A stretch of 64,000 nt of DNA, taken from the NCBI RefSeq assembly GCF_041080625.1, contig NZ_CP163518.1:9417501-9481500 (forward strand), read 5' to 3'. The translations under genes and the position numbers were made by a program. Origin of the DNA: Streptomyces sp. CG1. Lineage in GTDB: Bacteria > Actinomycetota > Actinomycetes > Streptomycetales > Streptomycetaceae. Each line of letters starts with the position of its first letter. Positions within the stretch are counted from its first letter, which is position 1. Shown here piece after piece: positions 21,088 through 37,712 of the stretch. The notes under the pieces were generated by a model. That model ran no database searches. It was not told the origin of the DNA and was given only the letters and a program-made list of their open reading frames with translations.

Positions 21088-21101
21088 TGATCGTCCGATC
21101 A
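21088..21101. promoter_or_regulatory. Candidate upstream operator, TGATCGTCCGATCA
   Basis: TGATCG and CGATCA are perfect inverted arms around a two-base centre, 30 bases upstream of the -35 of the fucosidase promoter. Its half-site shares TCCGAT with the second operator at 21159, which suggests one regulator, probably GntR- or TetR-like. Confidence 0.45.
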
Positions 21102-21131
21102 ATGCGTCAAGTGCAGCCCACTGCAGCCCCG

Positions 21132-21158
21132 TTGACAGTCTCGCGTCCGCCCTACAAT
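21132..21158 (+). promoter_or_regulatory. Housekeeping-type promoter of the fucosidase block
   Basis: TTGACA (21132-21137) and TACAAT (21153-21158) near-match the vegetative consensus with a 15-base spacer. They lie about 40 bases ahead of the GH29 start at 21199. Confidence 0.65.
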
Positions 21159-21174
21159 CATCAGACGTCCGATG
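21159..21174. promoter_or_regulatory. Operator overlapping the transcription start, CATCAGACGTCCGATG
   Basis: A 16-base near-perfect palindrome (CATCrGACGTCyGATG) immediately after the -10, where bound repressor would block initiation. It differs both from the LacI-type repeat at 28028 and from the GntR palindrome at 46089, so the cognate regulator may be outside this block. Confidence 0.6.
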
Positions 21175-21198
21175 AATCGGAGTGCATGGGAGCCGCTC

Positions 21199-23535
21199 AT
21201 GAGCACGTATCCCAGACGTCTGATCCTGGGCGCGGCAGCGGGCGTGACCGCCGCGGCCGCCCTGCCGCTCACCACCACGACCCCCGCGCGAGCCGCCGGC
21301 CGGCAGGGACCGTGGGCCGCCGTCCCCGATCCGGTGTCCGTCCCGCTCGACGCCCTCTTCGACAACGACGGCATCGACACCGCCTCCGCCCGCGGCGGTG
21401 ATTTCGACGGCTCCGGCTACACCTTCCCCGGAGAAGAGCTGCCCGCCGGCCCGGTCGAGGTGGCCGGCGTGCCCTTCCTGTTCCCCGCCTCGACCGCGGG
21501 GACCCGCAACAACGTCGTCGCCCTCGGCCAGCGCCTCGATCTGCCGAAGGGCCGCTATCTGTCGGCCTCCTTCCTCACCGCGGCCAGCTACGGCAACACC
21601 TCCGGCACCGCCACCGTGCACTACGCCGACGGCACGACGACCACCGCCGGCCTCGGCGGCGCGGACTGGTACTCGGCGGGCGGCCCGCTGTCGGCGCCCT
21701 ACCGCTACCGCCCCGACGGCGGCAAGGACCAGCACGGCGTCGGCATCGGTGTCTCGGAGATCTGGCTCGACCCGCGCCGCGAAGCGGTCGCCCTCACTCT
21801 CCCCGTCACCAACCCGGCCGAGGCGAACAAGGCCTCCCTGCACCTGTTCGCCCTCACCCTGCAACCCGTGGCCGAGGGCCGGGCGTTGATGCTTCGCGCA
21901 CCGCACCCCACCCACTCCCTGCTCGAACCGTCCGGCGCGCAGAGCGTGGAGGCCACGGTCGTCAACGCGGGAACCGTCGCCGTACTGGCGTCGGACGGCG
22001 TCTCGGTGACCGTGGACGCACCGGGCGCCCGCACGGTCCAGCCGGCCCGGATCCACCGCCTCGACCCGGGCGAACAGGCCCGCGTCCGGATCGGCATCCG
22101 CAACAGCACCGGCACCGCGCCGGGCACCCGCCGGGACGGCACGGTCACGGTGACCGGCCGAGGTGCCCAAGCGGCCGCAGGCAAGGCGACGTTGACCCTC
22201 GGCACCGCCGACTACCAGCCCACCGAGGCCTCCCTCTCCGCGCACCAGGCGCCGTACTGGTTCCAGGGAGCCAAGTTCGGCATCTTCATCCACTGGGGTG
22301 TCTACTCGGTGCCCGCCTGGTCACCGGTGGGCAAGCAGTACGCCGAGTGGTACTGGGACCACATGCAGGATCCGGCGGGCGCCGTGTACGCCTATCACCG
22401 GGACACCTACGGCGAGGACTTCGCCTACGACGACTTCATCCCCCGCTTCACCGCCGAGCGGTTCGACCCGCGGGCCTGGGTGGAGCTGTTCCGGGACGCG
22501 GGCGCCCAGTACCACGTCCTGACCTCCAAGCACCACGAGGGCTTCGCCCTGTGGGACACCAGGGTCTCCGACCGCAACGCCGTCAAGATGGGCCCCAAGC
22601 GGGACCTGGTGAACGAACTCTTCGAGGCGAGCCGCCGTTACGCCCCCGAACTCCACCGGGGCCTGTACTTCTCCATGCCCGAATGGTTCAACCCGGACAA
22701 CCCGTGGATGGGCCACGCCCCGCGCAACCCGTACACCCTCCAGTCGGTGCCGTACACCGGCTACACCGCAGGCAAGGACTACGTCCACGGCTACCAGGCC
22801 GCGCAGATGCTCGAACTGATCCACGGATACGACCCCGAGATCATCTGGTGCGACATCGGCGGAGTGAACGACAGCGTCCACGTCCTCGCCGACTACTTCA
22901 ACCACGCCAAGAACCGTGCCCGGCCGATCGACGTCACGGTCGACGACCGCTCGGGCATCGGCTTCCACGACTTCACGACACCCGAGTACACGACGTACGC
23001 CGACACGGTCGTCGCCAAGTGGGAGGCCAGCAGGGGCCTGGACCCGTTCTCCTACGGTTACAACCAGGCGACGCCCGACTCCGCCTACATGACCGCGGAG
23101 GAGGTGGTCCACAGCCTGGTCGACATCGTCTCCAAGAACGGCAACTTCCTGCTGGACATCGGCCCGCGTGCCGACGGCACGATCCCCGAGATCATGCAGA
23201 CGCGGCTGCGGGAGACGGGCGCGTGGCTGAAGACCAACGGGGAGGCGATCTACGAGACCACCTACTGGTCGCGGATGGCCCAGCTCGGCGACGACCTGCG
23301 CTTCACCGTTCGCCCGGACGAGGCTTTCTACATCCATTCCCTCGCCGCACCCGGGCCGAAGCTCACCGTCGAGGCCCCGGTGCCGGTGCGCCCCGGCGAC
23401 AAGGTGACGATGCTCGGCCATGACCGGCCCCTGACCTGGACCGTCACGGGCGGCGCACTCGTGATCGACGTACCGGAGGCGGCCCGGAAGGCGGGCAGGT
23501 ACGCCTGGGTGTTCAAGGTCGAGTGGCATGGCTGA
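21199..23535 (+). CDS. Exported alpha-L-fucosidase, GH29, with N-terminal beta domain
   Basis: Retaining exo-fucosidase that removes alpha-linked L-fucose from glycans outside the cell. 778 residues. A twin-arginine-type leader (YPRRLILGAAAGVTAAAALP, cut near PARAAG) is followed by about 310 residues of beta-rich, probably carbohydrate-binding sequence. The GH29 barrel begins at PYWFQGAKFGIFIHWGVYSV. HEGFALWDT and the nucleophile Asp552 in EIIWCDIGG mark the active site, and NGNFLLDIGPRADGTI closes the barrel, followed by a C-terminal beta sandwich. Start chosen at ATG 21199, with GGGAG 6 bases upstream, rather than ATG 21172, which lies inside the operator. It is the first gene of a three-gene block and overlaps the next by 8 bases. 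Confidence 0.93.
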   Translation: MSTYPRRLILGAAAGVTAAAALPLTTTTPARAAGRQGPWAAVPDPVSVPLDALFDNDGIDTASARGGDFDGSGYTFPGEELPAGPVEVAGVPFLFPASTAGTRNNVVALGQRLDLPKGRYLSASFLTAASYGNTSGTATVHYADGTTTTAGLGGADWYSAGGPLSAPYRYRPDGGKDQHGVGIGVSEIWLDPRREAVALTLPVTNPAEANKASLHLFALTLQPVAEGRALMLRAPHPTHSLLEPSGAQSVEATVVNAGTVAVLASDGVSVTVDAPGARTVQPARIHRLDPGEQARVRIGIRNSTGTAPGTRRDGTVTVTGRGAQAAAGKATLTLGTADYQPTEASLSAHQAPYWFQGAKFGIFIHWGVYSVPAWSPVGKQYAEWYWDHMQDPAGAVYAYHRDTYGEDFAYDDFIPRFTAERFDPRAWVELFRDAGAQYHVLTSKHHEGFALWDTRVSDRNAVKMGPKRDLVNELFEASRRYAPELHRGLYFSMPEWFNPDNPWMGHAPRNPYTLQSVPYTGYTAGKDYVHGYQAAQMLELIHGYDPEIIWCDIGGVNDSVHVLADYFNHAKNRARPIDVTVDDRSGIGFHDFTTPEYTTYADTVVAKWEASRGLDPFSYGYNQATPDSAYMTAEEVVHSLVDIVSKNGNFLLDIGPRADGTIPEIMQTRLRETGAWLKTNGEAIYETTYWSRMAQLGDDLRFTVRPDEAFYIHSLAAPGPKLTVEAPVPVRPGDKVTMLGHDRPLTWTVTGGALVIDVPEAARKAGRYAWVFKVEWHG

Positions 23536-25369
23536 GCGCCGGCGGAGAAGGTTCGGGCTGCTCGGCCTCGCCGCGGCGCTGGCCCTGTTCGCCGCACCGG
23601 TCCCCGCGATCGCCCAGGAGGCGCCGCCGCCCCCGGTCACCGTGCCCGCGCTCAGCAACTGGAGCCCGTCGAGCGGCAGTTATGCCCACAGCCACCGGAC
23701 CCGGCTGGTGGCCGACGGCGGGGCCGCACGCCGGGTGGCCGACACCCTCGCCGAGGATCTGCGAGCGGCGGGCCACGGCACGGTGCCCGTCGTGTCCGGC
23801 GGGGCGAGGTCCGGTGACATCGTGATCGACGTCAAGCCATCGAGCCGCTCGCTCGGCGCCGAGGGCTACGAACTCCGGTCCGGCGCAAGGCTGTCGGTCA
23901 CCGGCGCCACCGAGACCGGCGCTTTCTACGGCACCCGCACCCTCCTCCAGCTCCTCGCACAGGGCGACCGGATCCCCGCGGGCCACACGGTCGACGTCCC
24001 GCGCTACCGGGAACGCGGCGTCGGCGTCTGCGCCTGCTATGTCCACATCTCGATGCCCTGGCTGGAGAACCTCGTCCGCGAGATGGCGTACCACAAGCTC
24101 AACCAGCTGCTGCTGGAGCTGAAGGTGAAGAGCGACGCCCATCCGGAGGCCGGCACCTGGGGCTACTACACCAAGGCCGAGATACGCCGCCTCGTCGCCC
24201 TCGGTGACCGGTACCACGTCGACATCGTCCCGGAGATCAACTCCCCGGGCCATATGGACCCGTGGATCGAGAACCGCCCGGATCTGCAGCTGACGGGCTC
24301 CGACGGCAACAGGCAACCCGCCAGACTCGACATCACCCGTCCCGAGGCCTTCGCCTACTACACCGGCCTGCTGGACGAGTACGCCCAGGTGTTCACGTCC
24401 CGCTCCTGGCACATGGGCGCTGACGAGTACATGCTCGGCTCGGACTTCGCCAGGTACCCGCAGATCCTGAAGTACGCCCGGGACAAGTACGGTCCGGACG
24501 CCACCCCGCAGGACGCGTTCGTCGACTTCGTCAACCGCGTACAGGCCTACGCCGCGGCCAAGGGCAAGCGGCTGCGCATCTGGAACGACGGCCTCACCGG
24601 CGCCAACACGATTCCGGTCGCCGCCGGCACCACCGTCGAGCACTGGCTCGACGTGGCCGTGAAGCCGAGCCAACTCATCGCCCAGGGGCATGAGTTGATG
24701 AACGCGTCGTACGCGCTCTATCTCGTCCGGGGCGGCTTCCGCAGCGACACGAAGGCCCTCTACGACGAGGGCTGGGATCCCCGCACCTTCGAAGGCGAGA
24801 AACTCACCTCCTCCGCGGGGGTCACCGGCGCGAAGATCAGCCTCTGGCCCGACAACGGCCGGGGCGAGACCGAGAACGAGGTCGCGGCCGGACTCTGGCC
24901 CGCCCTCCGCCACATCGCTCAGGCCACCTGGGGCGATCCGCACCCCGACGCCGGCTACGCGGAGTTCACCGCGCGCGGCACGGCCGTCGGACACGCCCCG
25001 GGATGGCGGGACCTGACCCGGGTGCCGGTGCCGGACGGGGCGTACACGTTCCGGACGGGCGGGGCGTCGTACACCACCGAGGTGGTGCGCACCGCCGACG
25101 GCTACGCGACCGTGCGGACACCGGACGGCTGCCTGGAGGTGCACGGCGGAAAGCTCACCCTCAACGTGCCGCTCCAGCCGGGCACCGAGGTCACCCGCCG
25201 GCCCTGCGACAGCGCGAACACCCTGCAGCGCTGGCAGCTGGAACCCACCCCGGGCGGATACCACCTCGTCAACGCGATCACCCGGATGGCGGTGACCGTG
25301 GCCGACGACGGACGGCTCGTCCAGTACCCGCCCGACCAACGCGTCCCCGCCGTCTGGCGCCTGACCTGA
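23528..25369 (+). CDS. Secreted GH20 hexosaminidase / lacto-N-biosidase-like with C-terminal lectin-like domain
   Basis: Substrate-assisted glycosidase that removes beta-GlcNAc/GalNAc or, in lacto-N-biosidase relatives, Gal-beta-1,3-GlcNAc units. The 613-residue protein has a Sec signal (RRRRFGLLGLAAALALFAAP, cut near AIAQE), then a GH20 N-terminal beta domain with GAFYGTRTLLQLL. The barrel shows RYRERGVGVCACYVHISMPW, IVPEINSPGHM and the catalytic Asp299-Glu300 pair in WHMGADEY. The last 120 residues (TTEVVRTADGY to LQRWQLEPTPGGYHLVN) look like a beta-trefoil or ricin-type carbohydrate module. The start overlaps the fucosidase stop by 8 bases, so translation is probably coupled. It would expose core mannose of complex N-glycans or cleave fucosylated oligosaccharides after defucosylation. 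Confidence 0.88.
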   Translation: MAERRRRRFGLLGLAAALALFAAPVPAIAQEAPPPPVTVPALSNWSPSSGSYAHSHRTRLVADGGAARRVADTLAEDLRAAGHGTVPVVSGGARSGDIVIDVKPSSRSLGAEGYELRSGARLSVTGATETGAFYGTRTLLQLLAQGDRIPAGHTVDVPRYRERGVGVCACYVHISMPWLENLVREMAYHKLNQLLLELKVKSDAHPEAGTWGYYTKAEIRRLVALGDRYHVDIVPEINSPGHMDPWIENRPDLQLTGSDGNRQPARLDITRPEAFAYYTGLLDEYAQVFTSRSWHMGADEYMLGSDFARYPQILKYARDKYGPDATPQDAFVDFVNRVQAYAAAKGKRLRIWNDGLTGANTIPVAAGTTVEHWLDVAVKPSQLIAQGHELMNASYALYLVRGGFRSDTKALYDEGWDPRTFEGEKLTSSAGVTGAKISLWPDNGRGETENEVAAGLWPALRHIAQATWGDPHPDAGYAEFTARGTAVGHAPGWRDLTRVPVPDGAYTFRTGGASYTTEVVRTADGYATVRTPDGCLEVHGGKLTLNVPLQPGTEVTRRPCDSANTLQRWQLEPTPGGYHLVNAITRMAVTVADDGRLVQYPPDQRVPAVWRLT

Positions 25370-25385
25370 CCCGAGGAGCCCGAGC

Positions 25386-26927
25386 ATGGTTGTCTCCCGA
25401 CGCGTCTTCGTCACCTCGGCCGCCGCGCTGGCGGCGACGGGCGCGGTTCCCGCACCGCAGGCCCTGGCCACCACACAGGACACAGGCCGCTCCCGCATCC
25501 CGGTCGGCCGAGGCGACTCCGCGGCCGAGCTGGTCCGCAAGGCCTCCCAAGTCCGGCCCACCGCACGGCAGATCGCCTGGCAACGGCTGGAACGCACCGC
25601 CTTCCTGCACTTCGGCGTGAACACCTTCACCGGCCTGGAATGGGGCACGGGGGACGAGGACCCGGACGTCTTCCAGCCGTCCGGCCTCGACACGGACCAG
25701 TGGGCGCGCGCCCTGCGCGACGGCGGCTTCCGGCTCGCCATCCTCACCGTCAAACACCACGACGGCTTCGTCCTCTACCCGTCCCGCTACACCAAGCACA
25801 CGGTGGCGAGCAGCAGTTGGCGGAGCGGCCACGGTGATGTGCTGCGCTCGTTCGCCGACTCGATGCGACGGCACGGCCTCAAGGTCGGCGTCTACGTCTC
25901 ACCGGCCGACGAGAACCAGTACCTGCACGGCGTCTACGCCAACGGCAGCGCGCGCACCACCCGGACGATCCCGACGCCGGCCGAGGGCGACGACCGCTCC
26001 CCGGGGCGCGTCTTCACCCTCGACGCCACCGACTACGGCGCGCACATGCTCAACACGCTCTACGAGGTGCTCACCGAGTACGGTCCGATCGACGAGGTGT
26101 GGTTCGACGGCGCCCAGGGCCGCATCCCGCCGGACAAGGTGGAGCGGTACGACTGGGACAGCTGGTACACGCTGGTCCGCTCGCTCGCCCCGGACGCCGC
26201 CGTCGCCGTCTCGGGACCGGATGTGCGCTGGGTGGGCAACGAGGGCGGGCTGGCCCGGGAGGACGAGTGGAGCGTCGTGCCCGTGGCGGAGAAGGGCAAC
26301 GGCCGCACCGACTACGCGCTGGCGTACGACGCGCCCGACGAGGGCAGCCGGGACGCGCTGCTCGCCGCCCGCGATGTCGCCGACTATCTGCAGTGGTGGC
26401 CCGCCGAGTGCGATGTGTCCATCCGGGACGGCTGGTTCTACCACGCCGACCAACAGCCGAAGCCACTTGAGCAGTTGACGGACATCTACTTCCGGTCCGT
26501 GGGCCGCAACTCCGTGCTGCTGCTCAACGTCCCGCCGGACACGGACGGTTTGCTGCCCGCGGCAGACGTGGCACGGTTGCGGGAGTTCCGCGAGCGCATC
26601 GACCGGGAGCTGCCCGAGGACCTGGTCCGCGGCGCCCGGACCACCGCCGCCCCCGGGCGCCTCACCGTCGACCTCGGCGCGGAGCAGGAGGTGGACCGGA
26701 TCCGGCTGGCGGAGGACATCCGGCACGGGCAGCAGATCGAGGGGTTCGTCGTCGAAGCCCAGGCGGACGGCGCGTGGTCGCAGGTGGCCGCCGCCGGGAC
26801 GGTGGGCGCGAGCCGGATCCTGCTGCTGGCGGCGCCGGTACGGGCCCGGCGGTGGCGGGTGCGGGTCACCGTGGCCCGGGCGGCCGTACACCTCGCCGAG
26901 TTCGGGCTGTACCGGTCGCGCAACTGA
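25386..26927 (+). CDS. Second exported alpha-L-fucosidase, GH29, compact form
   Basis: 513 residues with a twin-arginine leader (VSRRVFVTSAAALAATGAVP). The GH29 barrel starts at ERTAFLHFGVNTFTGLEWG. VKHHDGFVLYPSRYTKHT, GVYVSPADENQYLHG and the nucleophile Asp241 in DEVWFDGAQG are present, and NSVLLLNVPPDTDGLL ends the barrel. A C-terminal domain (LGAEQEVDRIRLAEDI to VRVTVARAAVHLAEFGLYR) resembles a discoidin/CBM32-like sandwich. Its sequence is close to the GH29-B type, which usually prefers alpha-1,3/1,4 fucose on branched structures, whereas the first fucosidase looks different; the two may split linkages. It follows the GH20 gene by 16 bases with GAGGAGC upstream. Confidence 0.92.
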   Translation: MVVSRRVFVTSAAALAATGAVPAPQALATTQDTGRSRIPVGRGDSAAELVRKASQVRPTARQIAWQRLERTAFLHFGVNTFTGLEWGTGDEDPDVFQPSGLDTDQWARALRDGGFRLAILTVKHHDGFVLYPSRYTKHTVASSSWRSGHGDVLRSFADSMRRHGLKVGVYVSPADENQYLHGVYANGSARTTRTIPTPAEGDDRSPGRVFTLDATDYGAHMLNTLYEVLTEYGPIDEVWFDGAQGRIPPDKVERYDWDSWYTLVRSLAPDAAVAVSGPDVRWVGNEGGLAREDEWSVVPVAEKGNGRTDYALAYDAPDEGSRDALLAARDVADYLQWWPAECDVSIRDGWFYHADQQPKPLEQLTDIYFRSVGRNSVLLLNVPPDTDGLLPAADVARLREFRERIDRELPEDLVRGARTTAAPGRLTVDLGAEQEVDRIRLAEDIRHGQQIEGFVVEAQADGAWSQVAAAGTVGASRILLLAAPVRARRWRVRVTVARAAVHLAEFGLYRSRN

Positions 26928-26945
26928 CCACGAGAGCCGTCGGCT

Positions 26946-28004
26946 TCAAGCGGAGGGCTCGTCGGGGCGCACCGCCGCCGTGCTGCCCCGTACCGTAAGA
27001 CGGGGCACCGGCACGCGCACCGCCCGCGCCGGCCCCCCGTCCAGCAGGGCCGTCAGCTCCCGGGCTGCCGTGCGGCCGAACTCCGCGCTGTCACGGGAGA
27101 GCGCGGACAGCCAGGGAGTGACCATGCGGCACAGGGCCGAGTCCTCCCAGGAGACGACCGAGACGTCCGCCGGTACCGCGTAGCCGAGTTCGGCCGCCGC
27201 CGACACCCCGGCCACCGCCATCACGTCGTTGTCGTAGATCAGGGCCGTCGGGGGCGGCCCTGCGCGCAGGACCCGGCGGGTCACGGCCGCGCCCTCCGCG
27301 TCGGAGTAGTCGGTGGTGACCGAGCGGACCTCGGTCAGGCCACGCCGGTCGGCCTCGGCCCGCAGGGTGCGGACACGGCGCTGGGTGTGGGCGAGGCCCG
27401 GCAGGCCGGCGATGTGCACGATCCTGCGGTGGCCCAGCGCCGTCAGCTCGTCGACCACGGAGGCCATCGCGCCCGCGTCGTCCGCCCAGACCGCCGACAG
27501 TTCGGGGTGGCGCTCGTCGGGTGCGCCGCCGATCACCACGGCGGGCAGGCCGAGTTCGTCCAGCAGGCCGGGGCGGGGGTCGTCGGCGCGAGGGTCGACC
27601 ACCAGGACGCCGTCGACCCGGTGCTCCGCCCACCAGCGGCGGTAGACCGCGCATTCGTCGGCCACGTCCTCCACGACCTGGAACAGCAGCCCCAGATGCC
27701 GTTCGGCGAGCACCTCCTGGATGCCGGAGACGAGCTGCAGGAAGAACGAGTCGACGCCCAGGGTGTCAGCGGGACGGGCCAGGACGAAGCCGACCGTCGC
27801 CGCGCCCTCGCCGGACAGGGCACGGGCGGCCGTGCTGGGACGCCAGCCGAGCTGCTCGGCGACCCGGCGGACCCGCGCGCGGGTGGCCTCGGAGACACCC
27901 GGGCGGCCGTTGAGCGCGAAGGAGACGGCGCTCTCGGAGACTCCGGCCCGCCGGGCGATGTCCTTCATCGTGGGCCGGCGTGCGGGGGACCGCTTGGTCG
28001 GCAC
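26946..28004 (-). CDS. LacI-family transcriptional regulator of the N-glycan locus
   Basis: 352-residue repressor. The N-terminal helix-turn-helix is MKDIARRAGVSESAVSFALN with the hinge RVRRVAEQLGWRPSTAARAL. A periplasmic-binding-protein-like effector domain follows (ATVGFVLARPADTLGVDSFF, RVDGVLVVDPRADDP, LGHRRIVHIAGLPGLAHTQR, VSVVSWEDSALCRMVTPWLS). GTG 28004 is chosen because GGGGGGAGGAAC precedes it; longer readings have no site. It is transcribed away from the ABC importer operon, and the 220-base divergent region holds a perfect 16-base inverted repeat that is its probable operator. The effector is presumably a mannose- or GlcNAc-containing oligosaccharide. Confidence 0.92.
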   Translation of the reverse strand: MPTKRSPARRPTMKDIARRAGVSESAVSFALNGRPGVSEATRARVRRVAEQLGWRPSTAARALSGEGAATVGFVLARPADTLGVDSFFLQLVSGIQEVLAERHLGLLFQVVEDVADECAVYRRWWAEHRVDGVLVVDPRADDPRPGLLDELGLPAVVIGGAPDERHPELSAVWADDAGAMASVVDELTALGHRRIVHIAGLPGLAHTQRRVRTLRAEADRRGLTEVRSVTTDYSDAEGAAVTRRVLRAGPPPTALIYDNDVMAVAGVSAAAELGYAVPADVSVVSWEDSALCRMVTPWLSALSRDSAEFGRTAARELTALLDGGPARAVRVPVPRLTVRGSTAAVRPDEPSA

Positions 28005-28027
28005 GTTCCTCCCCCCTTCCTGGCAGT

Positions 28028-28075
28028 GTTCGCTAATGCGCTTGAGTGTCAAGACCCTAAAGCGCATTAGCGAAC
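28028..28075. promoter_or_regulatory. Probable LacI operator pair: perfect 16-base inverted repeat
   Basis: GTTCGCTAATGCGCTT (28028-28043) and AAGCGCATTAGCGAAC (28060-28075) are exact reverse complements 16 bases apart. Each arm contains AATGCGCTT, a LacI-like half-palindrome centred on GCGC. A minus-strand TTGACA lies in the spacer (28047-28052), placed to serve the regulator gene itself, so binding would give autorepression as well as control of the importer. Confidence 0.7.
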
Positions 28076-28224
28076 TCCGGCAAGTTCCCGTACGGAAGTC
28101 TCTGACCTGTACTAATGAACCCCCTATTTCTTTAGTTCGGATGACTGCATTGACTTTCTCCGAACGGCGCGGGCAAGGTCTCTGGCACCCCGACAGCCCG
28201 ACACAGCAAGGGAGCCGTGTCACC

Positions 28225-29511
28225 GTGCCCATGCCCCGCAGAGCCCTCGCCGCCGCTGTCGTCGCCCTCGTCCTGCCCCTGAGCGCCTGCGGTTCGGGCG
28301 GTGACGGCGGCGGCTCGACCGACGCCTCCGGCAAGGTCGAGGGCGACATCAGCTTCCAGACCTGGAACCTGCGCGCGAACTTCAAGTCGTACTTCGACGG
28401 GCTCATCGCCGACTTCGAGAAGAAGTACCCCGGTACACATGTGAAATGGGTCGACCAGCCCGCCGAGGGCTATCCCGACAAGCTCAGCGCCGACGCAGGC
28501 GGCGGCACCCTGCCCGATGTCGTCAACGTCTCCCCGGACCTGGTCGCCCCCCTCGCCAAGGCCGGACTGGCCCTGGACCTCGCCAAGGCCGCCGGAAAGT
28601 ACAAGTCCGAGTACCTGGAAGGCGCCTGGGCGAGCCACCAGGTGCCGGGCATGAGCGGCACCTACGCCTTCCCCTGGTACCTGAACACCGGCCCGCTCTT
28701 CTACAACAAGGCGCTGTTCGCCAAGGCCGGACTGAACCCCGGCCGGCCGCCGAAGACCTACGACGAACTCTTCGCCGACGCCCTGCAGATGGCGAAGAGG
28801 AGCGGCGGCCAGGTCGCCACGCTCGCCAACGTGCCCACCATCGAGGACTTCGGGCGCTACGGCGTCACCCTGATGAACCAGCAGGGCACGGCGTTCGCCT
28901 TCAACGACGCCAAGGGAATCGAACTCCTCACCAAGTACAAGGAGTTGTACGACGCGAAGGCCCTCGACCCGCAGGCGCTGACCGCGACCCCCGAGTCCTC
29001 CGGCAAGAAGTTCCTCACCGGCGCCGTCGCCATGAACCCCGGCAGCGCCCTCGACCTCGACAACTTCAAGAAGAACGCCCCGAGCCTGTACAGGAACATC
29101 GGCATCACCGACCAGATCACCAGCACCGGGCACGTCAACATGTATGTGATGGGCGTGATGGTCAACTCCCGCACCAGGCACACCCCGGCCGCCGTCGCCT
29201 TCGCGCACTTCGTCACCGACGCACAGAACCAGATGTCTTTCGCGAAGAAGGTCGCCATCTTCCCGAGCACCGCCGGCTCCCTGAACGACCCGTACTTCAC
29301 CAAGGAGGACGGCACCGACGAGACCCGGGTGCGCATCGCCGCCGCCAAGTCTCTTAAAAATGCCGTCAATTACACCCCCGTGCTGTTCAGCGACCAGATG
29401 AAGACCGCGTTGCGCAACGAGGTGGCCAAGGCGCTCCAGGGCGAGGAGAGCCCCAAGCAGGCCCTCGACAACGCTGTCAACGCCGCCAACCGCCTCCTCC
29501 AGCAGGGCTGA
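28225..29511 (+). CDS. Carbohydrate ABC transporter substrate-binding lipoprotein (CUT1)
   Basis: Membrane-anchored solute-binding protein that captures an oligosaccharide for import. 428 residues. The signal peptide MPRRALAAAVVALVLP ends in lipobox LSACG, followed by a Gly/Ser linker. The extracellular solute-binding family 1 fold shows GDISFQTWNLRANFKSYFDG, GGTLPDVVNVSPDLVAPLAK, YAFPWYLNTGPLFYNKALF and GAVAMNPGSALDLDNF. GTG 28225 is favoured because AAGGGAG sits 10 bases upstream; ATG 28231 is the alternative. Two permease genes follow but no ATPase, consistent with use of a shared MsiK-type ATPase as known for Streptomyces CUT1 importers. Context suggests released N-glycans as ligand. Confidence 0.92.
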   Translation: MPMPRRALAAAVVALVLPLSACGSGGDGGGSTDASGKVEGDISFQTWNLRANFKSYFDGLIADFEKKYPGTHVKWVDQPAEGYPDKLSADAGGGTLPDVVNVSPDLVAPLAKAGLALDLAKAAGKYKSEYLEGAWASHQVPGMSGTYAFPWYLNTGPLFYNKALFAKAGLNPGRPPKTYDELFADALQMAKRSGGQVATLANVPTIEDFGRYGVTLMNQQGTAFAFNDAKGIELLTKYKELYDAKALDPQALTATPESSGKKFLTGAVAMNPGSALDLDNFKKNAPSLYRNIGITDQITSTGHVNMYVMGVMVNSRTRHTPAAVAFAHFVTDAQNQMSFAKKVAIFPSTAGSLNDPYFTKEDGTDETRVRIAAAKSLKNAVNYTPVLFSDQMKTALRNEVAKALQGEESPKQALDNAVNAANRLLQQG

Positions 29512-29516
29512 CCGGC

Positions 29517-30404: not shown

Positions 30405-31306
30405 GCGTCCTGGAGAAGGTGCGGCCCGAGCCGCCCGGCACGGTGCGGAGGGAGCCGCGCGTCACCGATGAACACGGCCGCCGTGTCCGTGTCGGCGAGC
30501 TGGTCTGGCGCTATCTGCTGCTCCTCGCCGTCCTCGCGCTGACCGTCGGGCCGTTCCTCTGGCAGCTGTCCACCTCCCTCAAGGGCCCGACCGAGGACAT
30601 CTACGGCTCGCCGCCGAGCTTCCTGCCCGCCCATCCGACGCTGCACAACTACACACGGGTCGCCGACACCATCCCCGTCTGGGACTACGCACTCAATTCC
30701 CTGAAGGTCGCCACCGCCAACGTCGTCACCAACTGCGTCGGCTCGGCGCTCGCCGGCTACGCCCTGGCCCGGCTGCGCTTCCGCGGCCGGCGCGGGACCA
30801 CGCTGGTGTTCGTGCTCGCGATGCTCGTACCCGTCGAGGGCATCGTCATCGCCCAGTTCACCACCATGCGCGAACTCGGCCTGAACAACACGCTCGTCGG
30901 CGTCGTGCTGCCCGGCGCGATCGGCGCGATGAACGTGCTGCTGATGCGCAACGCCTTCCGCAACCTGCCGTACGAGATCGAGGAGGCGGCCTATGTCGAC
31001 GGCGCCAACGTCTGGCAGCGGTTCCTGCGCGTCGCGCTGCCGTCGGTGAAGGGCACGGTGGCCGTCGTCGCGATCTTCGCCTTCATGGGTGCCTGGGACG
31101 ACTTCCTGTGGCCGCTGATCGTGCTCAGCGACCCGTCCAAGTTCACCCTGACCATCGGCCTGAACTATCTGCACGGCACCTTCGCCAACGACGAACGCCT
31201 CGTCGCGGCCGGCACCGTGATCGCGGTGGCCCCGCTCATCGCCCTCTTCGCCTGCCTGCAGGGGTACTTCTTCCGAGGCGTCGGCGAGGGCGCCGTCAAG
31301 GGCTGA
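30401..31306 (+). CDS. Sugar ABC transporter permease, MalG type
   Basis: 301-residue second channel subunit. A 45-residue hydrophilic N-terminus precedes six helices (YLLLLAVLALTVGPFLWQLS first). The EAA loop is NLPYEIEEAAYVDGANVWQR. The start is GTG 30401, overlapping the preceding TGA, which sets the start firmly. The conserved C-terminal FACLQGYFFRGVGEGAVKG is typical of MalG-like proteins. The glycosidase gene follows 26 bases later in the same direction. Confidence 0.93.
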   Translation: MSVLEKVRPEPPGTVRREPRVTDEHGRRVRVGELVWRYLLLLAVLALTVGPFLWQLSTSLKGPTEDIYGSPPSFLPAHPTLHNYTRVADTIPVWDYALNSLKVATANVVTNCVGSALAGYALARLRFRGRRGTTLVFVLAMLVPVEGIVIAQFTTMRELGLNNTLVGVVLPGAIGAMNVLLMRNAFRNLPYEIEEAAYVDGANVWQRFLRVALPSVKGTVAVVAIFAFMGAWDDFLWPLIVLSDPSKFTLTIGLNYLHGTFANDERLVAAGTVIAVAPLIALFACLQGYFFRGVGEGAVKG

Positions 31307-31332
31307 ACACCCGTACGTCACAAGGACACTCC

Positions 31333-32589
31333 ATGCCTCCTGCCGTGCGCTTCGGCGTCAACTACACCCCGAGCGACGGGTGGTTCCACCACTGGCTCGA
31401 CTTCGACCTCGACGCCGTGTGCGCCGACCTCGACGCGATCGCCGCGCTCGGCCTCGACCACATCCGCGTCTTCCCGCTGTGGCCCTACTTCCAGCCCAAC
31501 CGCACCCTGATCCGCCCGCGCGCCGTCGAGCAGCTCGTCGCCCTCGCCGACGCGGCCGCCGAACGCGGCCTGGACGTCAATGTCGACGGACTGCAAGGCC
31601 ACTTGAGCAGCTTCGACTTCCTGCCTGCCTGGACCCGGACCTGGCACCGGCGCAACCTCTTCACCGACCCGGAGGTGGTCGAGGGCCAGGCCGCCTACCT
31701 GCGCACCCTCGCCGCGGCCCTCGCCGACCGCCCCCACTTCATCGGGATGACCGTCGGCAACGAGGTCAACCAGTTCGCCGCCGGCCCTCACCCCGACCCC
31801 GACCGCATCACCACGGGGGAGGCCGAGCGGTGGCTCGTCCGGATGCTGGCCGCCTGCGCCGAGGGCGCCCCGGACCGGCTCCATCTGCACGCCTCCTACG
31901 ACGCCGCCTGGTACCAGGACGACCAGCCCTTCACCCCCGGCCACTCCGCCCGGCTGGGCGATGTCACCGCCGTGCACTCCTGGGTGTTCAACGGCACCGC
32001 CCAGCGTCACGGCCGTACCTCCGTACAGGCCGAGCACCACGCCGCCTATCTCGTCGAGCTGAGCAAGGCCTGGGCGCACGCACCCCACCGGCCGGTGTGG
32101 CTGCAGGAGGTCGGCGCGCCCGCACCGCTCGTGCCCGCCGAACACGCCGCAGCGTTCGCCGAGGCCACCGTCACCCATGCCCTCGACTGCCCCGACCTGT
32201 GGGGCATCACCTGGTGGTGCTCCTACGACGTCTCGCCCGACCTCGCCGACTTCCCCGAACTCGAGTACGGACTCGGCCTGTTCACCAACGACCGCACACC
32301 CAAGGACATCGCCCGCGTGCTGGCCGACGCGGCTCACCGGCCCCATGAGGCTCCCGCCGCGCGCACCACCGCCCTCGTCGTGCCCGACGATCCGGCCCGC
32401 CGCTCCCGGTGCGCCCCCGGCGGACCCGTCTACGACGCCTTCTTCCGGCTCGTCGCCGACGGCGCCCGCCCCACCACCGTCCTCGACACCCGCGCGGACG
32501 ACAAGGACCACCTCGCCGCGCGCGGCATCACCGAAGTCGTCACTCCCGACCAGGTACTCCCCACCCCACACGGAGGCACCCGCTCGTGA
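31333..32589 (+). CDS. Cytosolic GH5-like glycosidase, probable beta-mannosidase acting on Man-GlcNAc
   Basis: 418 residues with no signal peptide. The (beta/alpha)8 clan-A layout is visible: GVNYTPSDGWFHHWLDFDLD, LGLDHIRVFPLWPYFQPN, acid/base Glu144 in TVGNEVNQF, and nucleophile Glu259 in VWLQEVGAP, followed by WGITWWCSYD. This matches the GH5_18-type enzymes of actinobacteria and bifidobacteria that cleave the core Man-beta-1,4-GlcNAc linkage (family knowledge; subfamily assigned by resemblance). Its position between the importer and the GH85 gene fits removal of the last mannose after endoglycosidase release and uptake. AAGGA precedes ATG 31333. The stop overlaps the GH85 start by 4 bases (GTGA). 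Other beta-glycosidase activity is possible. Confidence 0.85.
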   Translation: MPPAVRFGVNYTPSDGWFHHWLDFDLDAVCADLDAIAALGLDHIRVFPLWPYFQPNRTLIRPRAVEQLVALADAAAERGLDVNVDGLQGHLSSFDFLPAWTRTWHRRNLFTDPEVVEGQAAYLRTLAAALADRPHFIGMTVGNEVNQFAAGPHPDPDRITTGEAERWLVRMLAACAEGAPDRLHLHASYDAAWYQDDQPFTPGHSARLGDVTAVHSWVFNGTAQRHGRTSVQAEHHAAYLVELSKAWAHAPHRPVWLQEVGAPAPLVPAEHAAAFAEATVTHALDCPDLWGITWWCSYDVSPDLADFPELEYGLGLFTNDRTPKDIARVLADAAHRPHEAPAARTTALVVPDDPARRSRCAPGGPVYDAFFRLVADGARPTTVLDTRADDKDHLAARGITEVVTPDQVLPTPHGGTRS

Positions 32590-34601
32590 ACCCCACCAGA
32601 CGCACGGTCCTCGTCGCCGCCGGAGCGGCCGCCCTGCTCCCGTCCGCTCCGGCCCTGGCAGCCACCCGCCCGAAGACCGGGGCGACCCCGCCGTACGCGT
32701 CCTACTGGTACCCGGACTCGCTCCCCTCCGGCACTCCGGGCACCGGCATCACCTGGCGCAGCCTGAAGAGCTGGCGCGCGGCCGACGACGCCGACCTCGC
32801 GTTCAACGCCGCGTCCGTGCCGCTCGCCGCACGCTTCACGCCGACCCCCGCGAACACCACCGCCCGCTCCGGCCAGGCCCGTATCCAGGCCCTGGTGTCC
32901 TTCGCACCCACCTCGGGCAATCCGTCCCAGGGCTCGGCCACCGCCGACTACTACGCCCTGACCCACTGGGCCTACCTCGACGAGCTGGTCTTCTGGGGCG
33001 GCTCGTCCGGCGAGGGCCTGATCCTCGCGCCGAACGCGCCGATCGTGGACGCGGCCCACCGGAACGGCGTCCCGGTGCTCGGGAACATCTTCCTGCCGCC
33101 GACGGCGTACGGCGGGCAGCTGCAGTGGACCCGGGATCTGGTGCAGAAGGACGCCTCCGGGCACTGTCCGCTCGCCGCGCAGCTCGTCGCGGTCGCGGCG
33201 GCCTACGGCTTCGACGGCTGGTTCGTCAACGCCGAGACGGGCGGCGGGAACACCGCCCTCGGGCAAGCCATGCTCGGTTTCGTCAAGGAGCTGAAGGCGC
33301 TCGCGGCGGCCAAGGGACAGCGCGTGACCTGGTACGACGCGATGACCGTGAACGGTACGGTCGGCTGGCAGGGGGCGCTGAACAGCCAGAACCAGGCGTT
33401 CTTCCAGGCCGCCGACGCCCTGTTCGTCGACTTCCGGTGGAGCGCGGGCACGCTCGTGTCCTCGGGCACGAAGGCGGACCAACTGGGGCGCAGTCGCTAT
33501 CAGTTGTGGGCGGGCGTCGACGTCGAGTCGAACGGGTCCGACACGGCCGTGAACTGGGACGCGATCGTGCCGTCCGGGCAGTCGCACATCACCTCGATCG
33601 GCTTCTACCGGCCGGAGTGGACCCGCAACCACCTGCCCGCCGACCAGCGCGCCCCCGAGGACTTCCACGCCGCCGACGACCGGTTCTGGACCGGGCGCTC
33701 ACTGGACCCGTCCCGCCCGGACCCGGGTGATCCCTGGCGGGCGCCGGCGCTGTCGGTCGCGGACCGCTCGACGGTGGCCTCGCTGCCGTTCGCGACCGTG
33801 TTCAACACGGGGCACGGGCTGCGCTGGTACGAGGACGGCGCCGTCACCTCGGACACGGCCTGGAACCACCTGGGGCTGCAGGACCGGCTGCCGTCGCGGC
33901 GATGGGTGGTGCGCACGGCGGGGGAGCGGCCGGCGGTGACCTTCGACTTCGCCGATGCCTGGCGGGGCGGGAGCAGCGTGCTGGTGGACGGTGCACTGGA
34001 TCAGCCCGTGGTGGTGGATCTGTATGCGTCCCGGCTGCCGATCGGCGGGAACACGGTGGTCGAGCTGACGTACCGGACCGACGCCGGTGCCGTGCACGTC
34101 GAGCCGGCCGTGGCGACGGCCGAGCCGAGCGGGGCCGGGGCGACTCCGCCGTACACGTATCCGGCGGTGACCTCGGTCGGCGAGGGCGTCAACGGCTGGC
34201 AGACCGTGACGGTTCCGCTCACCGGGCTGACCGGCACCGTCCACGCCCTCGGAGTGCGGCTCACGGCCACGGCGGGTCCGGTGCGCTGGCGCCTGGGCGG
34301 CCTCGCCGTCCGGGACGCCGTCACCGCCCCGGCAGCCCCCTCGGGTGGACGTGTCACCGCCGCGACCGGCGGCGATCTGCGCCTGGCCTGGGACGCCGCC
34401 CCCGGCACCGTCCGCCACTACGAGCTGCACCGCCTCCTGCCCGACGGCACCCGGCACTTCCTCGGCGGCACCTGCGAGCGCGCCTTCTTCCTCACCGGCC
34501 TGCAACGCGAACAAGGGGAGAGCGCCGCACGGTTCGAACTGCGCGCCGTGGGGGAGCTCTACAACGCCTCGACCCCCGTGACCGTCACTCACACCTGGTA
34601 A
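32586..34601 (+). CDS. Exported endo-beta-N-acetylglucosaminidase, GH85
   Basis: Cuts the chitobiose core of N-glycans, leaving one GlcNAc on the protein and releasing the rest. 671 residues. A twin-arginine-type leader TRRTVLVAAGAAALLPSAPA is cut near ALA. The GH85 barrel shows ASYWYPDSLPSGTPGTGITW and YLDELVFWGGSSGEG. The diagnostic Asn215-x-Glu217 pair is in DGWFVNAETGGG (oxazoline-stabilising Asn and acid/base Glu), with VDFRWSAGTL downstream. C-terminal beta sandwiches (RWVVRTAGERPAVTFDFADA) and a fibronectin-III-like end (APSGGRVTAATGGDLRLAWD) follow. GTG 32586 overlaps the GH5 stop. Its stop codon lies within the first unit of a 16-base tandem repeat that leads to the GH38 gene. Confidence 0.93.
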   Translation: MNPTRRTVLVAAGAAALLPSAPALAATRPKTGATPPYASYWYPDSLPSGTPGTGITWRSLKSWRAADDADLAFNAASVPLAARFTPTPANTTARSGQARIQALVSFAPTSGNPSQGSATADYYALTHWAYLDELVFWGGSSGEGLILAPNAPIVDAAHRNGVPVLGNIFLPPTAYGGQLQWTRDLVQKDASGHCPLAAQLVAVAAAYGFDGWFVNAETGGGNTALGQAMLGFVKELKALAAAKGQRVTWYDAMTVNGTVGWQGALNSQNQAFFQAADALFVDFRWSAGTLVSSGTKADQLGRSRYQLWAGVDVESNGSDTAVNWDAIVPSGQSHITSIGFYRPEWTRNHLPADQRAPEDFHAADDRFWTGRSLDPSRPDPGDPWRAPALSVADRSTVASLPFATVFNTGHGLRWYEDGAVTSDTAWNHLGLQDRLPSRRWVVRTAGERPAVTFDFADAWRGGSSVLVDGALDQPVVVDLYASRLPIGGNTVVELTYRTDAGAVHVEPAVATAEPSGAGATPPYTYPAVTSVGEGVNGWQTVTVPLTGLTGTVHALGVRLTATAGPVRWRLGGLAVRDAVTAPAAPSGGRVTAATGGDLRLAWDAAPGTVRHYELHRLLPDGTRHFLGGTCERAFFLTGLQREQGESAARFELRAVGELYNASTPVTVTHTW

Positions 34602-34678
34602 GCACCGGGAACCGTAAGCACCGGGAACCGTAAGCACCCGGAAACGAAAGCACATGGAACCGTAAGCACCCGGAACCC
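34599..34678 (+). repeat. Five tandem copies of a 16-base unit between GH85 and GH38 genes
   Basis: Units start at 34599, 34615, 34631, 34647 and 34663, with consensus GTAAGCACCGGGAACC. Units 1 and 2 are identical; the others carry one to three changes. The first copy supplies the TAA stop of the GH85 gene. The array fills nearly all of the 93-base gap before GH38, ending just before its GGGAG ribosome site. Confidence 0.95.
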
Positions 34679-34694
34679 GCAGGGAGCACCCCGC

Positions 34695-37600
34695 ATGCAT
34701 GACGACCGCACTCTGGTGGAAGCCCGCCTCAGGCGTGTCCTCGACGAACGCATCCGCCCCGCCGTGTACCCCGAGTCCGTGCCGCTGCGGGTCGCGGTCT
34801 GGCACGCGCCCGGCGAGCCCGTACCGGTCGCGGAGGGACTCGCCGCCGAGCAGGAGCCCATCGAGGTCGGCGCCCGGTGGGGGGCTCCCTGGGGCACGAG
34901 CTGGTTCCGGGTGACCGGGACCGTGCCCGAGGCGTGGGCCGGGAAGACCGTCGAGGCCCTGCTCGACCTGGGCTTCGACGAGAACATGCCCGGCTTCCAG
35001 TGCGAGGGCCTGGTCTACCGGCCCGACGGCACCCCGGTGAAGGGTCTCAACCCGCGCAACCAGTGGGTGCGGATCGGCGCGCCCGCCGAGGGCGGCGAGG
35101 AGGTGGTCCTGCACATCGAGGCCGCCTCCAACCCCGTCATCCTCGACTACCACCCCTTCCTGCCCACCCGGCTGGGCGACAAGGAGACGGCCGGCAGCGA
35201 GCCCCAGTACACGCTCACCCGCATGGACCTCGCCGTCTTCGACGAGACCGTGTGGCAGCTGGCCATGGACCTGGACGTGCTCGGCGAGCTGATGGCGGAG
35301 CTGCCCATGGACTCCGCACGCCGGCACGACATCCTGCGCGCGGTCGAGCGGGCCCTGGACGCCGTCGACCTCCAGGACGTGAACGGTACGGCCGACCGGG
35401 CCAGGGAACGGCTCACCGGTGTGCTGTCGGCCCCCGCCGTGCCGTCCGCGCACCGGATCAGCGCCGTCGGGCACGCACACATCGACTCGGCCTGGCTGTG
35501 GCCGCTGCGCGAGACGGTCCGCAAGGTGGCCCGTACGACCTCCAACATGACACAACTGATCGAGGACGAACCGGAGTTCGTCTTCGCCATGTCCCAGGCC
35601 CAGCAGTGGGTCTGGGTGAAGGAGCACCGGCCCGAGGTGTGGGCGCGGGTGAAGAAGGCCGTCGCGGAGGGGCGGTTCGTGCCGGCCGGCGGGATGTGGG
35701 TGGAGTCGGACACCAACATGCCGGGCTCGGAGGCGATGGCCCGTCAGTTCGTGCACGGAAAGCGGTTCTTCCTCGACGAGTTCGGCGTCGAGAACGAGGA
35801 GGCGTGGCTGCCCGACACCTTCGGCTTCGCCGCCGGACTGCCGCAGATCATCAAGGCCGCGGGCAGCAAGTGGCTGCTGACCCAGAAGATCTCCTGGTCG
35901 CAGACCAACAAGTTCCCGCATCACACCTTCCAGTGGGAGGGCATCGACGGCACCCGGATCTTCACCCACTTCCCGTCCGTCGACACCTACAACTGCTCCA
36001 TGAAGGGCAGCGAACTCGCCCACGCGGAACGCAACTTCAAGGACAAGGGCCGGGCCCGGCACTCCCTCGCGCCCACCGGCTGGGGCGACGGAGGCGGCGG
36101 CACGACCCGCGAGATGGTCGCCAAGGCGGCCCGGCTCCGCGACCTCGAAGGCTCGCCGGCTGTCGTCTGGGAGACACCCCGCGCCTTCTTCCAGAAGGCC
36201 GAGGCCGAGTACGCGCAGCCGCCCGTCTGGGTCGGCGAACTGTACCTCGAACTGCACCGCGCCACGCTCACCAGCCAGGCGAAGACCAAGCAGGGCAACC
36301 GGCGCAGCGAACACCTCCTGTACGAGGCGGAGTTGTGGGCGGCCACCGCTGCGGTCCGTACCGGATTCCGCTACCCCTACGCGGACCTGGACCGCATCTG
36401 GAAGACGGTCCTGCTCCACCAGTTCCACGACATCCTGCCGGGCTCGTCCATCGCCTGGGTGCACCGGGAGGCGCGGGCGGCCTACGAGCGGATCGCCGCG
36501 GAACTGAACGAGATCACCGGTGCCGCTCAGCGGGCCCTGGCCGGAGCGGGGGACCGGGAGCTGGTCTTCAACGCGGCGCCGCACCGCCGCGCCGGGGTTC
36601 GAGCCGGTGGCGCCGGAGCACACCTGCTGCCGCAGGGAACGAGCCTCGTGCCACGCGCCGACGGCGGATTCGTCCTGGCCAACGGCCTGCTCCGGGCCGA
36701 GATCGACGCCCGGGGGCTGATCGTCTCCGCCTACGACATCCAGGCCGACCGCGAGACCGTCGCTCCCGGCAGGGCCGCGGGCCTGCTCCAACTCCACCAG
36801 GACTTCCCGAACATGTGGGACGCCTGGGACGTGGACGAGTTCTACCGCAACACGGTCACGGACCTCACGGACGCGGAGTCGGTCCAGGCCGGTGCGGACG
36901 GCGTGTCGGTGCGGATCGCACGTGCCTTCGGCGACTCCCGCGTCACCCAGGTGCTGTCCCTGCCGCCCGGCGAGCGGCGCCTGGTGATCGACACCGAGGT
37001 CGACTGGCACGAGACGGAGAAGTTCCTGAAGCTGGCCTTCCCACTCGACCTGCACGCCGAACGGTACGCCTCCGAGACCCAGTTCGGGCACGTCTTCCGC
37101 CCCACCCACACCAACACCTCGTGGGAGGCCGCCAAGTTCGAGGCGTGCAACCACCGGTTCGTCCACCTGGAGGAGCCCGGCTGGGGCGTGTCCGTCGTCA
37201 ACGACTCGACGTACGGCCACGACGTGACCCGTACGGTGCGCACCGATGGCGACCGGGGCACGACGACCACGGTCCGCGTCTCTCTGCTCCGCGCCCCGCG
37301 CTTCCCGGACCCCGAGACCGACCAGGGTGTCCACCGCTTCCGGCACGCCCTGATCCCGGGCGCCTCGATCGCCGACGCGGTTCGCGAGGGCTGGCGGATC
37401 AACCTGCCGGAACGGCGTCTGACCGGCGCCCACGAGGCCGTCCCGCTGGTCAGCGTGGACAACGACGCGGTGATCGTCACGGCGGTGAAGCTGGCCGACG
37501 ACGGCAGCGGGGATGTGGTGGTCCGGTTCCACGAGGCATACGGCGGCCGGGCCCGCGCCACCCTCACGGCCGGTTTCGAGGTCGCGGACGTCACCGTGAC

Positions 37601-37712
37601 CGACCTGCTGGAACGGCCGTCCGGAGACACCGAGCCGCCGCAGCGCGACGGCGACCGGATCACCGTACGGCTGCGGCCGTTCGAGCTGGTGACGCTCAGG
37701 CTGCGGCGCTGA
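34695..37712 (+). CDS. Cytosolic alpha-mannosidase, GH38
   Basis: Zinc-dependent retaining alpha-mannosidase of 1005 residues without export signal, so it acts on imported glycan. The N-terminal beta domain (PWGTSWFRVTGTVPEAWAGK, GFDENMPGFQCEGLVYRPDG) is followed by the GH38 barrel. Zinc ligands His260 and Asp264 lie in GHAHIDSAWLWP, the nucleophile Asp374 in WLPDTFGFAAGLPQII, and a further zinc histidine in LLHQFHDILPGSSI. The beta-rich C-terminal domains include FGHVFRPTHTNTSWEAAKFE. Length and layout match bacterial and yeast-type vacuolar/ER class II enzymes that trim high-mannose glycans. GGGAGC precedes ATG 34695. It ends the locus at a strong hairpin. Confidence 0.95.
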   Translation: MHDDRTLVEARLRRVLDERIRPAVYPESVPLRVAVWHAPGEPVPVAEGLAAEQEPIEVGARWGAPWGTSWFRVTGTVPEAWAGKTVEALLDLGFDENMPGFQCEGLVYRPDGTPVKGLNPRNQWVRIGAPAEGGEEVVLHIEAASNPVILDYHPFLPTRLGDKETAGSEPQYTLTRMDLAVFDETVWQLAMDLDVLGELMAELPMDSARRHDILRAVERALDAVDLQDVNGTADRARERLTGVLSAPAVPSAHRISAVGHAHIDSAWLWPLRETVRKVARTTSNMTQLIEDEPEFVFAMSQAQQWVWVKEHRPEVWARVKKAVAEGRFVPAGGMWVESDTNMPGSEAMARQFVHGKRFFLDEFGVENEEAWLPDTFGFAAGLPQIIKAAGSKWLLTQKISWSQTNKFPHHTFQWEGIDGTRIFTHFPSVDTYNCSMKGSELAHAERNFKDKGRARHSLAPTGWGDGGGGTTREMVAKAARLRDLEGSPAVVWETPRAFFQKAEAEYAQPPVWVGELYLELHRATLTSQAKTKQGNRRSEHLLYEAELWAATAAVRTGFRYPYADLDRIWKTVLLHQFHDILPGSSIAWVHREARAAYERIAAELNEITGAAQRALAGAGDRELVFNAAPHRRAGVRAGGAGAHLLPQGTSLVPRADGGFVLANGLLRAEIDARGLIVSAYDIQADRETVAPGRAAGLLQLHQDFPNMWDAWDVDEFYRNTVTDLTDAESVQAGADGVSVRIARAFGDSRVTQVLSLPPGERRLVIDTEVDWHETEKFLKLAFPLDLHAERYASETQFGHVFRPTHTNTSWEAAKFEACNHRFVHLEEPGWGVSVVNDSTYGHDVTRTVRTDGDRGTTTTVRVSLLRAPRFPDPETDQGVHRFRHALIPGASIADAVREGWRINLPERRLTGAHEAVPLVSVDNDAVIVTAVKLADDGSGDVVVRFHEAYGGRARATLTAGFEVADVTVTDLLERPSGDTEPPQRDGDRITVRLRPFELVTLRLRR

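Follow-up and report, generated by a model that had tools for sequence, protein, structure and literature searches.

GH5_18 N-glycan-core loci have reportedly been described by Higgins et al. in 2021 for gut and soil actinobacteria, soil-dwelling Streptomyces included. The locus analysed here lies in a stretch of 64,000 nucleotides of Streptomyces sp. CG1 (contig NZ_CP163518.1, positions 9,417,501 to 9,481,500, called the window in the following), which corresponds to 9.42-9.48 Mb in a genome of 11.1 Mb, and resembles those loci in its GH5_18 enzyme, which matches ScGH5_18 and BlGH5_18 in sequence, its importer and its alpha-mannosidase. In N-glycan locus 1 of Cutibacterium acnes (PMC6160142; papers with PMC numbers are drawn upon for parts of their text) a cytosolic GH38 and a GH5_18 adjoin each other as here, together with a solute-binding protein (SBP), permeases and a regulator, whereas its endoglycosidase is a GH18 and its GH20 a presumed chitobiose-core hexosaminidase in place of the GH85 and the separate-operon GH20 of the lacto-N-biosidase branch found in the window. 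As the core gene logic has already been printed for C. acnes (PMC6160142), the statement of an earlier note on this DNA that no description of the full set in Streptomyces was known is not supported as regards the core. The core module is of a known kind; no description was found of fucosidase/lacto-N-biosidase and fucose modules joined to such a core in the literature searched, mainly titles and beginnings of abstracts with few subscription journals, which is weak evidence of novelty.

Three neighbouring modules, an exported module at 21.2-26.9 kb (the cassette), a core module at 28-37.7 kb and a fucose module at 45.3-54.2 kb, probably form one glycan island, which is most likely modular and devoted to fucosylated complex and oligomannose N-glycans. 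Observed are the enzyme families, three distinct conserved palindromes and the co-occurrence of the modules. More tentatively, a Lewis-antenna module and an L-fucose operon may have been added to an N-glycan-core locus to give a system with three regulators that handles entire fucosylated complex N-glycans, perhaps those of plant glycoproteins with Lewis a; gain and loss of the two fucose modules, which flank the core on either side, would then go hand in hand. Families were assigned by profile searches with Pfam and NCBIfam, the latter adding little, and solved relatives by PDB sequence match; with Pfam and PDB, all genes named in the earlier note were recovered at about the places given there. 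Relatives came from two sets, the best 80 of 524 confirmed GH5_18 candidate loci, all from Streptomyces and some cut by the 10 kb flanks, and 199 evenly drawn Streptomyces genomes. The core module consists of the following features.

26946..28004, minus strand: LacI-family regulator (PF00356, PF13377; start codon by inspection)
28030..28073, no strand: operator 1, two mirrored LacI-type units at 28030-28045 (minus) and 28058-28073 (plus), between the LacI and SBP genes, which diverge
28225..29511, plus strand: solute-binding lipoprotein of a CUT1 importer (PF01547, E 5e-42)
29517..30404, plus strand: CUT1 permease 1 (PF00528)
30401..31306, plus strand: CUT1 permease 2 (PF00528)
31333..32589, plus strand: cytosolic GH5_18 beta-mannosidase, predicted to act on Man-beta-1,4-GlcNAc (PDB sequence match)
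32586..34601, plus strand: exported GH85 endo-beta-N-acetylglucosaminidase (PF03644, E 7e-81)
34695..37712, plus strand: cytosolic GH38 alpha-mannosidase, Ams1-like (PF01074/PF09261/PF07748)

The gene at 31333-32589 has no Pfam match; its product matches ScGH5_18 (7lr7, E 3e-202, 676 bits) and BlGH5_18 (7lqx, E 6e-122), the Glu replaced by Ala in 7lr8 is a Glu here and the WLQEVGAP region aligns, which places the enzyme in the subfamily. The GH85, the only one found in the genome, matches 2vtf (E 2e-101) and Endo-D (2w91, E 2e-68) and retains the Asn-x-Glu motif, while the GH38 is closest to 7ufs (E 2e-250), followed by Ams1 chains (7vqo, E 5e-168; 6lz1, E 8e-140). No ATPase gene is present in the core operon, and a single UgpC-type ATPase above the family cut-off, an MsiK-like one, is encoded 4.5 Mb distant, which fits an importer without its own ATPase as described in the earlier note.

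The synteny comparison across Streptomyces proposed in that note has been performed, and the core is kept as a block. Within the best 80 loci the SBP and both permeases accompany GH5_18 in all 80, LacI in 79, GH38 in 73 and GH85 in 70; a contig end cuts all seven loci without GH38 and two of the ten without GH85. Since the block is kept across these loci, the gene order is not due to chance: GH5_18, GH38, SBP, permeases and regulator occur together. Among the 199 genomes GH5_18 (E up to 1e-60) is found in 109 and GH85 in 80. Upon division of GH5_18 at 64% identity, a split of our own, type I, to which the enzyme in the window belongs, is present in 97 genomes, a second type in 26 and both in 14; 69 of the 80 GH85 matches are located at most 5 kb from a type I gene, and GH85 matches are lacking in 21 of the 97 genomes with type I. 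From this frequency and conservation in both sets, the core is an established and common locus, and the families together with the conserved block support the path of N-glycan release, uptake and cytosolic breakdown that had been proposed for importer, GH85, GH38 and GH5_18. In loci L002, L004, L056, L058, L064, L068, L073 and L075 GH38 follows GH5 with no GH85 between; another endoglycosidase may act as replacement in GH85-less loci.

In its exact form, operator 1 is confined to the core. Two units occur in the window compared with 0.02 expected, and AAGCGCATTAG has exactly two exact sites genome-wide, both at operator 1; with one mismatch, 18 further genome sites are found, and the reversed control gives 46. 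Among the 80 relatives, 74 have one unit or more (13 bases, at most two mismatches) between LacI and SBP and six have none; just two weak matches lie outside this gap, neither of them before a cassette. Control of the exported operon by LacI is rejected, as neither the window nor any of the 80 relatives has operator 1 ahead of the cassette. The exported module reads as follows.

21132..21161, plus strand: promoter-like TTGACA at 21132, with TACAAT 15 nt on or AATCAT 18 nt on
21158..21175, no strand: operator 2, TCATCAGACGTCCGATGA, before the exported operon, the only exact site in its own genome
21199..23535, plus strand: exported GH29-A type alpha-L-fucosidase (PF01120, E 3e-102; twin-arginine-like signal by inspection)
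23528..25369, plus strand: exported GH20 of the lacto-N-biosidase branch with a C-terminal lectin-like domain (PDB sequence match)
25386..26927, plus strand: exported GH29 of alpha-1,3/4-fucosidase type with an F5/8 C domain (PF01120)

For the GH20, one of the trimming enzymes in the earlier note, the reading as a plain hexosaminidase is not supported: lacto-N-biosidases match with E 1e-173 (8hvb, 582 bits), E 2.6e-123 (LnbB, 4h04, 416 bits) and E 2e-115 (9fyn, 390 bits), versus E 5e-33 at best (118 bits or less) for hexosaminidases, 1hp4 giving E 5e-16. Seven active-site residues of LnbB named in PMC9016705 (Glu216, Asn259, His263, Asp320, Glu321, Tyr419 and Asp467) are all identical, the comparison being with LnbB only. 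Pfam recognises GH20b and GH20 and, under its cut-off, a lectin match (E 3e-4), which completes the GH20b-GH20-lectin layout, and the alignment to 8hvb extends to residue 602 of 613; a lectin domain has been reported to be required by lacto-N-biosidase (PMC4449183). The enzyme belongs by its sequence to the lacto-N-biosidase branch, with release of Gal-beta-1,3-GlcNAc predicted.

The second GH29 matches 4zrx (E 2e-115) and the alpha-1,3/4-fucosidase 3mo4 (E 2e-98). Thirteen distinct sequences, from 4zrx to 3gza, span E 2e-115 to 7e-52 before the next at E 9e-22, and all three entries named alpha-1,3/4-fucosidase fall among them, which places the enzyme closest to GH29-B. The first GH29, of GH29-A type, has 2zwy as best solved relative (E 5e-77); its start at 21199 is the likelier one because the ATG at 21172 sits within the palindrome. 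Residues 42-236 of the 787-aa frame 21172-23535 are similar to the solved proteins Azi28 and AziU2 (E about 1e-10). GH29-B enzymes prefer Lewis epitopes (PMC11189522). Commercially, alpha-1,3/4-fucosidase and lacto-N-biosidase activities are obtained from Streptomyces sp. 142 (PMC8091460), the same pair of activities as predicted here from one operon. Equally, Bifidobacterium bifidum attacks type 1 milk oligosaccharides with extracellular LnbB and fucosidases (PMC4449183, PMC8106489), in common with the enzymes here acting outside the cell, whereas the biosidase of the window is secreted, shorter and located beside N-glycan core genes.

The palindrome of operator 2, TCATCNGACNTCNGATGA, follows the TTGACA motif and precedes the start of the exported operon. 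A promoter consensus scan chooses TTGACA-18-AATCAT (one found versus 0.5 in shuffles, weak alone), and a TTGACA stands at similar distance before operator 2 in several relatives. Exact copies of TCATCNGACNTCNGATGA number 18 in 18 of the 199 genomes, one each, with none for the reversed control, and 17 of them immediately precede a GH29A or GH20 ortholog, G087 being the exception. If its 14-base core may differ at one position, operator 2 is present at 19 of the 39 loci with cassette, and the 41 others all lack it. The regulator of operator 2 is not encoded beside the site in the window. Of three one-mismatch sites in the own genome only that at 5751056 had passing frames, kinase-like and P450-like by eye, which gave no lead to a regulator. 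The third module is located downstream of the core.

45299..46024, minus strand: GntR/FCD regulator (PF00392, PF07729)
46091..46101, no strand: operator 3, TGGTCGGACCA, in the gap between the GntR and SBP genes
46221..47285, plus strand: sugar-binding lipoprotein, Peripla_BP_4 (PF13407, E 5e-52)
47282..48772, plus strand: CUT2-type ATPase with two ABC domains (PF00005, two stretches)
48765..49793, plus strand: CUT2-type permease (PF02653)
49830..51170, plus strand: L-fuconate dehydratase (1yey L-fuconate dehydratase, E 3.6e-201, 672 bits)
51167..51922, plus strand: short-chain dehydrogenase of the fucose path (PF13561, E 2e-53)
51937..53025, plus strand: aldo-keto reductase, putative L-fucose dehydrogenase, start uncertain (PF00248; L-galactose dehydrogenase 8scc, E 4e-34)
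52968..53336, plus strand: RhaM-type sugar mutarotase (PF05336, E 7e-20)
53333..54166, plus strand: L-fuconolactonase (PF04909; NF052480, E 2.4e-70, 237 bits, cut-off of 400 not reached)

This operon for import and oxidation of L-fucose (45299-54166) had been overlooked in the earlier note. Dehydrogenase, lactonase (under its NCBIfam cut-off), fuconate dehydratase and importer are all found; dehydrogenase, lactonase and L-fuconate dehydratase are shared with the non-phosphorylative L-fucose pathway (PMC12263773), from which the operon differs by a CUT2-type importer and its place beside N-glycan core genes. In 59 of 64 loci the sequence TGGTCNGACCA stands between the GntR and SBP genes, and none of the 64 has it anywhere else; counted by distinct gaps, two genomes having entered twice, this makes 58 of 62. 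Operator 2 is missing from the gap, and it is not supported that the GntR/FCD regulator controls the exported operon. A CHAT-domain gene, a gene without Pfam match and a multicopper oxidase gene separate GH38 from the operon in the window; in the relatives of the 80-locus set that show the operon, the gap from GH38 to GntR amounts to 5 to 4061 bp (median 710).

Presence of the fucose operon has been compared with that of the cassette on the other side of the core in the 57 of 80 loci scorable on both sides; 23 were dropped for an unknown cassette state or lack of a downstream view, and presence of the operon was scored by GntR and the first transporter genes, at which the flanks end. The start of the operon is present in 35 of 36 loci with cassette versus 8 of 21 without (Fisher p 1e-6, a test that ignores kinship). 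In L033, the one remaining cassette locus, the operon occurs further along the same record (L127), and L006, which has no cassette, counts as positive on GntR alone near the locus end; in the 13 cassette-less negatives the flanking genes past the operon are reached, with a GntR remnant in L040 and L048. Furthermore, the 20 kb downstream of GH38 were fetched in 20 chosen genomes, 13 with a lacto-N-biosidase ortholog (at least 69% identity) by the core and seven without. All nine fucose genes are present in 17 of the 20, namely in 13 of 13 with the biosidase and in four of seven without, G015 and G187 having none of them and G169 two. Good but not conclusive evidence connects the fucosidases with the fucose operon.

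In the proposed course of events, the second GH29 would remove alpha-1,3/4-fucose from Lewis-type antennae, whereupon the lacto-N-biosidase would take off Gal-beta-1,3-GlcNAc as a disaccharide, and the first GH29 would remove other fucose. Exported GH85 would release N-glycans as Man(n)GlcNAc1, to be imported by the lipoprotein and the CUT1 permeases, presumably powered by the ATPase encoded elsewhere; in the cytosol GH38 would strip alpha-mannose and GH5_18 cleave the last Man-beta-1,4-GlcNAc. Freed L-fucose would enter via the CUT2-type transporter and be oxidised via fuconolactone, fuconate and 2-keto-3-deoxyfuconate. LacI is predicted to repress the core module and its own gene via the mirrored operator pair, and the exported module would be under another regulator. 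All substrates, the pairing of palindromes with proteins, the order of steps and the preparation of complex N-glycans by the exported module for the core are predictions from gene families and gene context. Plant complex N-glycans bear Lewis a, a fucosylated type 1 chain, which would give the pair of fucosidase and lacto-N-biosidase a use in soil; oligomannose glycans would require the core module alone.

The linkage of the exported module to the core has to be judged against one further landmark.

19627-20985, minus strand: amidase, marking the left side of the cassette site (67 of the 199 genomes have it at E up to 1e-180)

The exported module is located between the amidase gene and LacI in the 80 loci: 39 carry it wholly or in part, in 13 the amidase and LacI genes are at most 500 bp apart, 12 hold other DNA between them and 16 were left unjudged. 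A quick tree built from 79 core sequences requires 18 changes of module state, at least 14 of them on well-supported branches, versus 24.9 with shuffled labels. Orthologs of the lacto-N-biosidase occur in 32 of the 199 genomes, 22 of which also possess a type I GH5_18, with the pair at most 25 kb apart in 20 of the 22. This linkage as proof of function is weakened by the amidase landmark. In 27 of the 67 amidase genomes no type I GH5_18 reaches 72% identity. On the other hand, a GH5_18 of any type is present in 26 of 26 amidase-bearing genomes with the biosidase versus 23 of 41 without (p 3e-5), and overall in 30 of the 32 biosidase genomes versus 79 of the 167 others, kinship being ignored in these and all further tests of the linkage; the second GH5_18 type (49-58% identity, 26 genomes) occurs in 22 of the 32 versus four of the 167.

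Several points weigh against the three-module reading. Of 37 genomes with the core at the amidase, 18 also have the biosidase beside that gene, compared with 8 of 30 that lack the core at this place (p 0.08), so that the linkage of the biosidase to the core is in part synteny; within the amidase-bearing genomes it is not tied to type I GH5_18 as such (18 of 26 versus 22 of 41, p 0.31), and what ties it to GH5_18 is the second type, never located in its vicinity. Tree-based independent pairs for cassette and fucose operon, four for, none against and eight uninformative (p 0.125), are too few for proof. Operator 2 stays with GH29A/GH20 orthologs where no type I core is nearby (G174, G158, G186, G105, G021) and belongs, because it is present where the type I core is far, to the exported enzymes and not to the N-glycan core; its exact form is found in just 12 of the 32 biosidase genomes, two of these at a GH29A elsewhere. 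The lipoprotein at 28225, with its predicted ligand, has no close solved relative (6wpm at best, E 3.8e-30). Core fucose and xylose of plant glycans would block GH85, and enzymes for plant core xylose or core alpha-1,3-fucose were not identified, no genome-wide search for them having been made. A lacto-N-biose phosphorylase, a possible point of difference from B. bifidum (PMC4449183, PMC8106489), was not found, with control genomes equally silent.

The alternative that survives best regards the exported operon as an independent unit scavenging type 1 chains and Lewis structures from free oligosaccharides or animal and plant glycoconjugates, located beside the core by inherited gene order only. 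Its own palindrome, which accompanies the fucosidase even far from the core, the share of the linkage that the amidase landmark accounts for and the missing type I tie within amidase-bearing genomes all speak for such a unit; it is nevertheless rather unlikely in view of the tie to any GH5_18 in those genomes and of the covariation with the fucose operon across the core. Less probable still, indeed doubtful, is the single jointly controlled N-glycan locus at 21-38 kb envisaged in the earlier note, with trimming by fucosidases and GH20, release by GH85 and, after import, completion by GH38 and GH5. Gene order, enzyme families and the proximity of biosidase and type I GH5_18 in 20 of 22 genomes are in its favour, but the exported and core operons share no operator, in the window or in the 80 relatives, operator 2 also occurs away from the core, the cassette is absent in 25 of the 80 relatives with amidase and LacI both visible in all 25, the biosidase stands beside the amidase without the core in eight genomes, and the fucose operon is left out. 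A core module for another beta-mannoside, for example plant mannan oligosaccharides, is highly improbable, since against a binding protein without close solved relative and one genome paper that classes GH5_18 under mannan (PMC11475409) stand Bifidobacterium GH5_18 enzymes that cleave Man-beta-1,4-GlcNAc (PMC12691653), the presentation of the C. acnes GH5_18 as an N-glycan-core enzyme (PMC6160142) and the GH85 adjoining type I in 69 of 80 cases.

In the parts of the literature surveyed, lacto-N-biosidases are treated as gut enzymes for milk and mucin or as Streptomyces reagents, without a natural role in soil. The tie of the biosidase to GH5_18 genes and fucose oxidation suggests such a role in testable form, for which relatives with and without each module provide a ready comparison. 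Equally, three predicted operators have been gained, one of them with a regulator not encoded beside it.

The 1412-aa protein with C-terminal CHAT domain (39277-43515, minus strand) was found in one of the 20 fetched genomes (G143). To the left of the amidase, one more glycosidase is encoded.

12311-14632: GH92, signal-like N-terminus by eye

The suggestion that this GH92 might be a further member was not borne out, as neither operator 1 nor operator 2 precedes the gene and operon membership was rejected. It is a frequent but not constant neighbour: an ortholog of at least 75% identity is present in 13 of the 20 chosen genomes and lies near the core in seven by contig number and coordinates and in three more by coordinates only.

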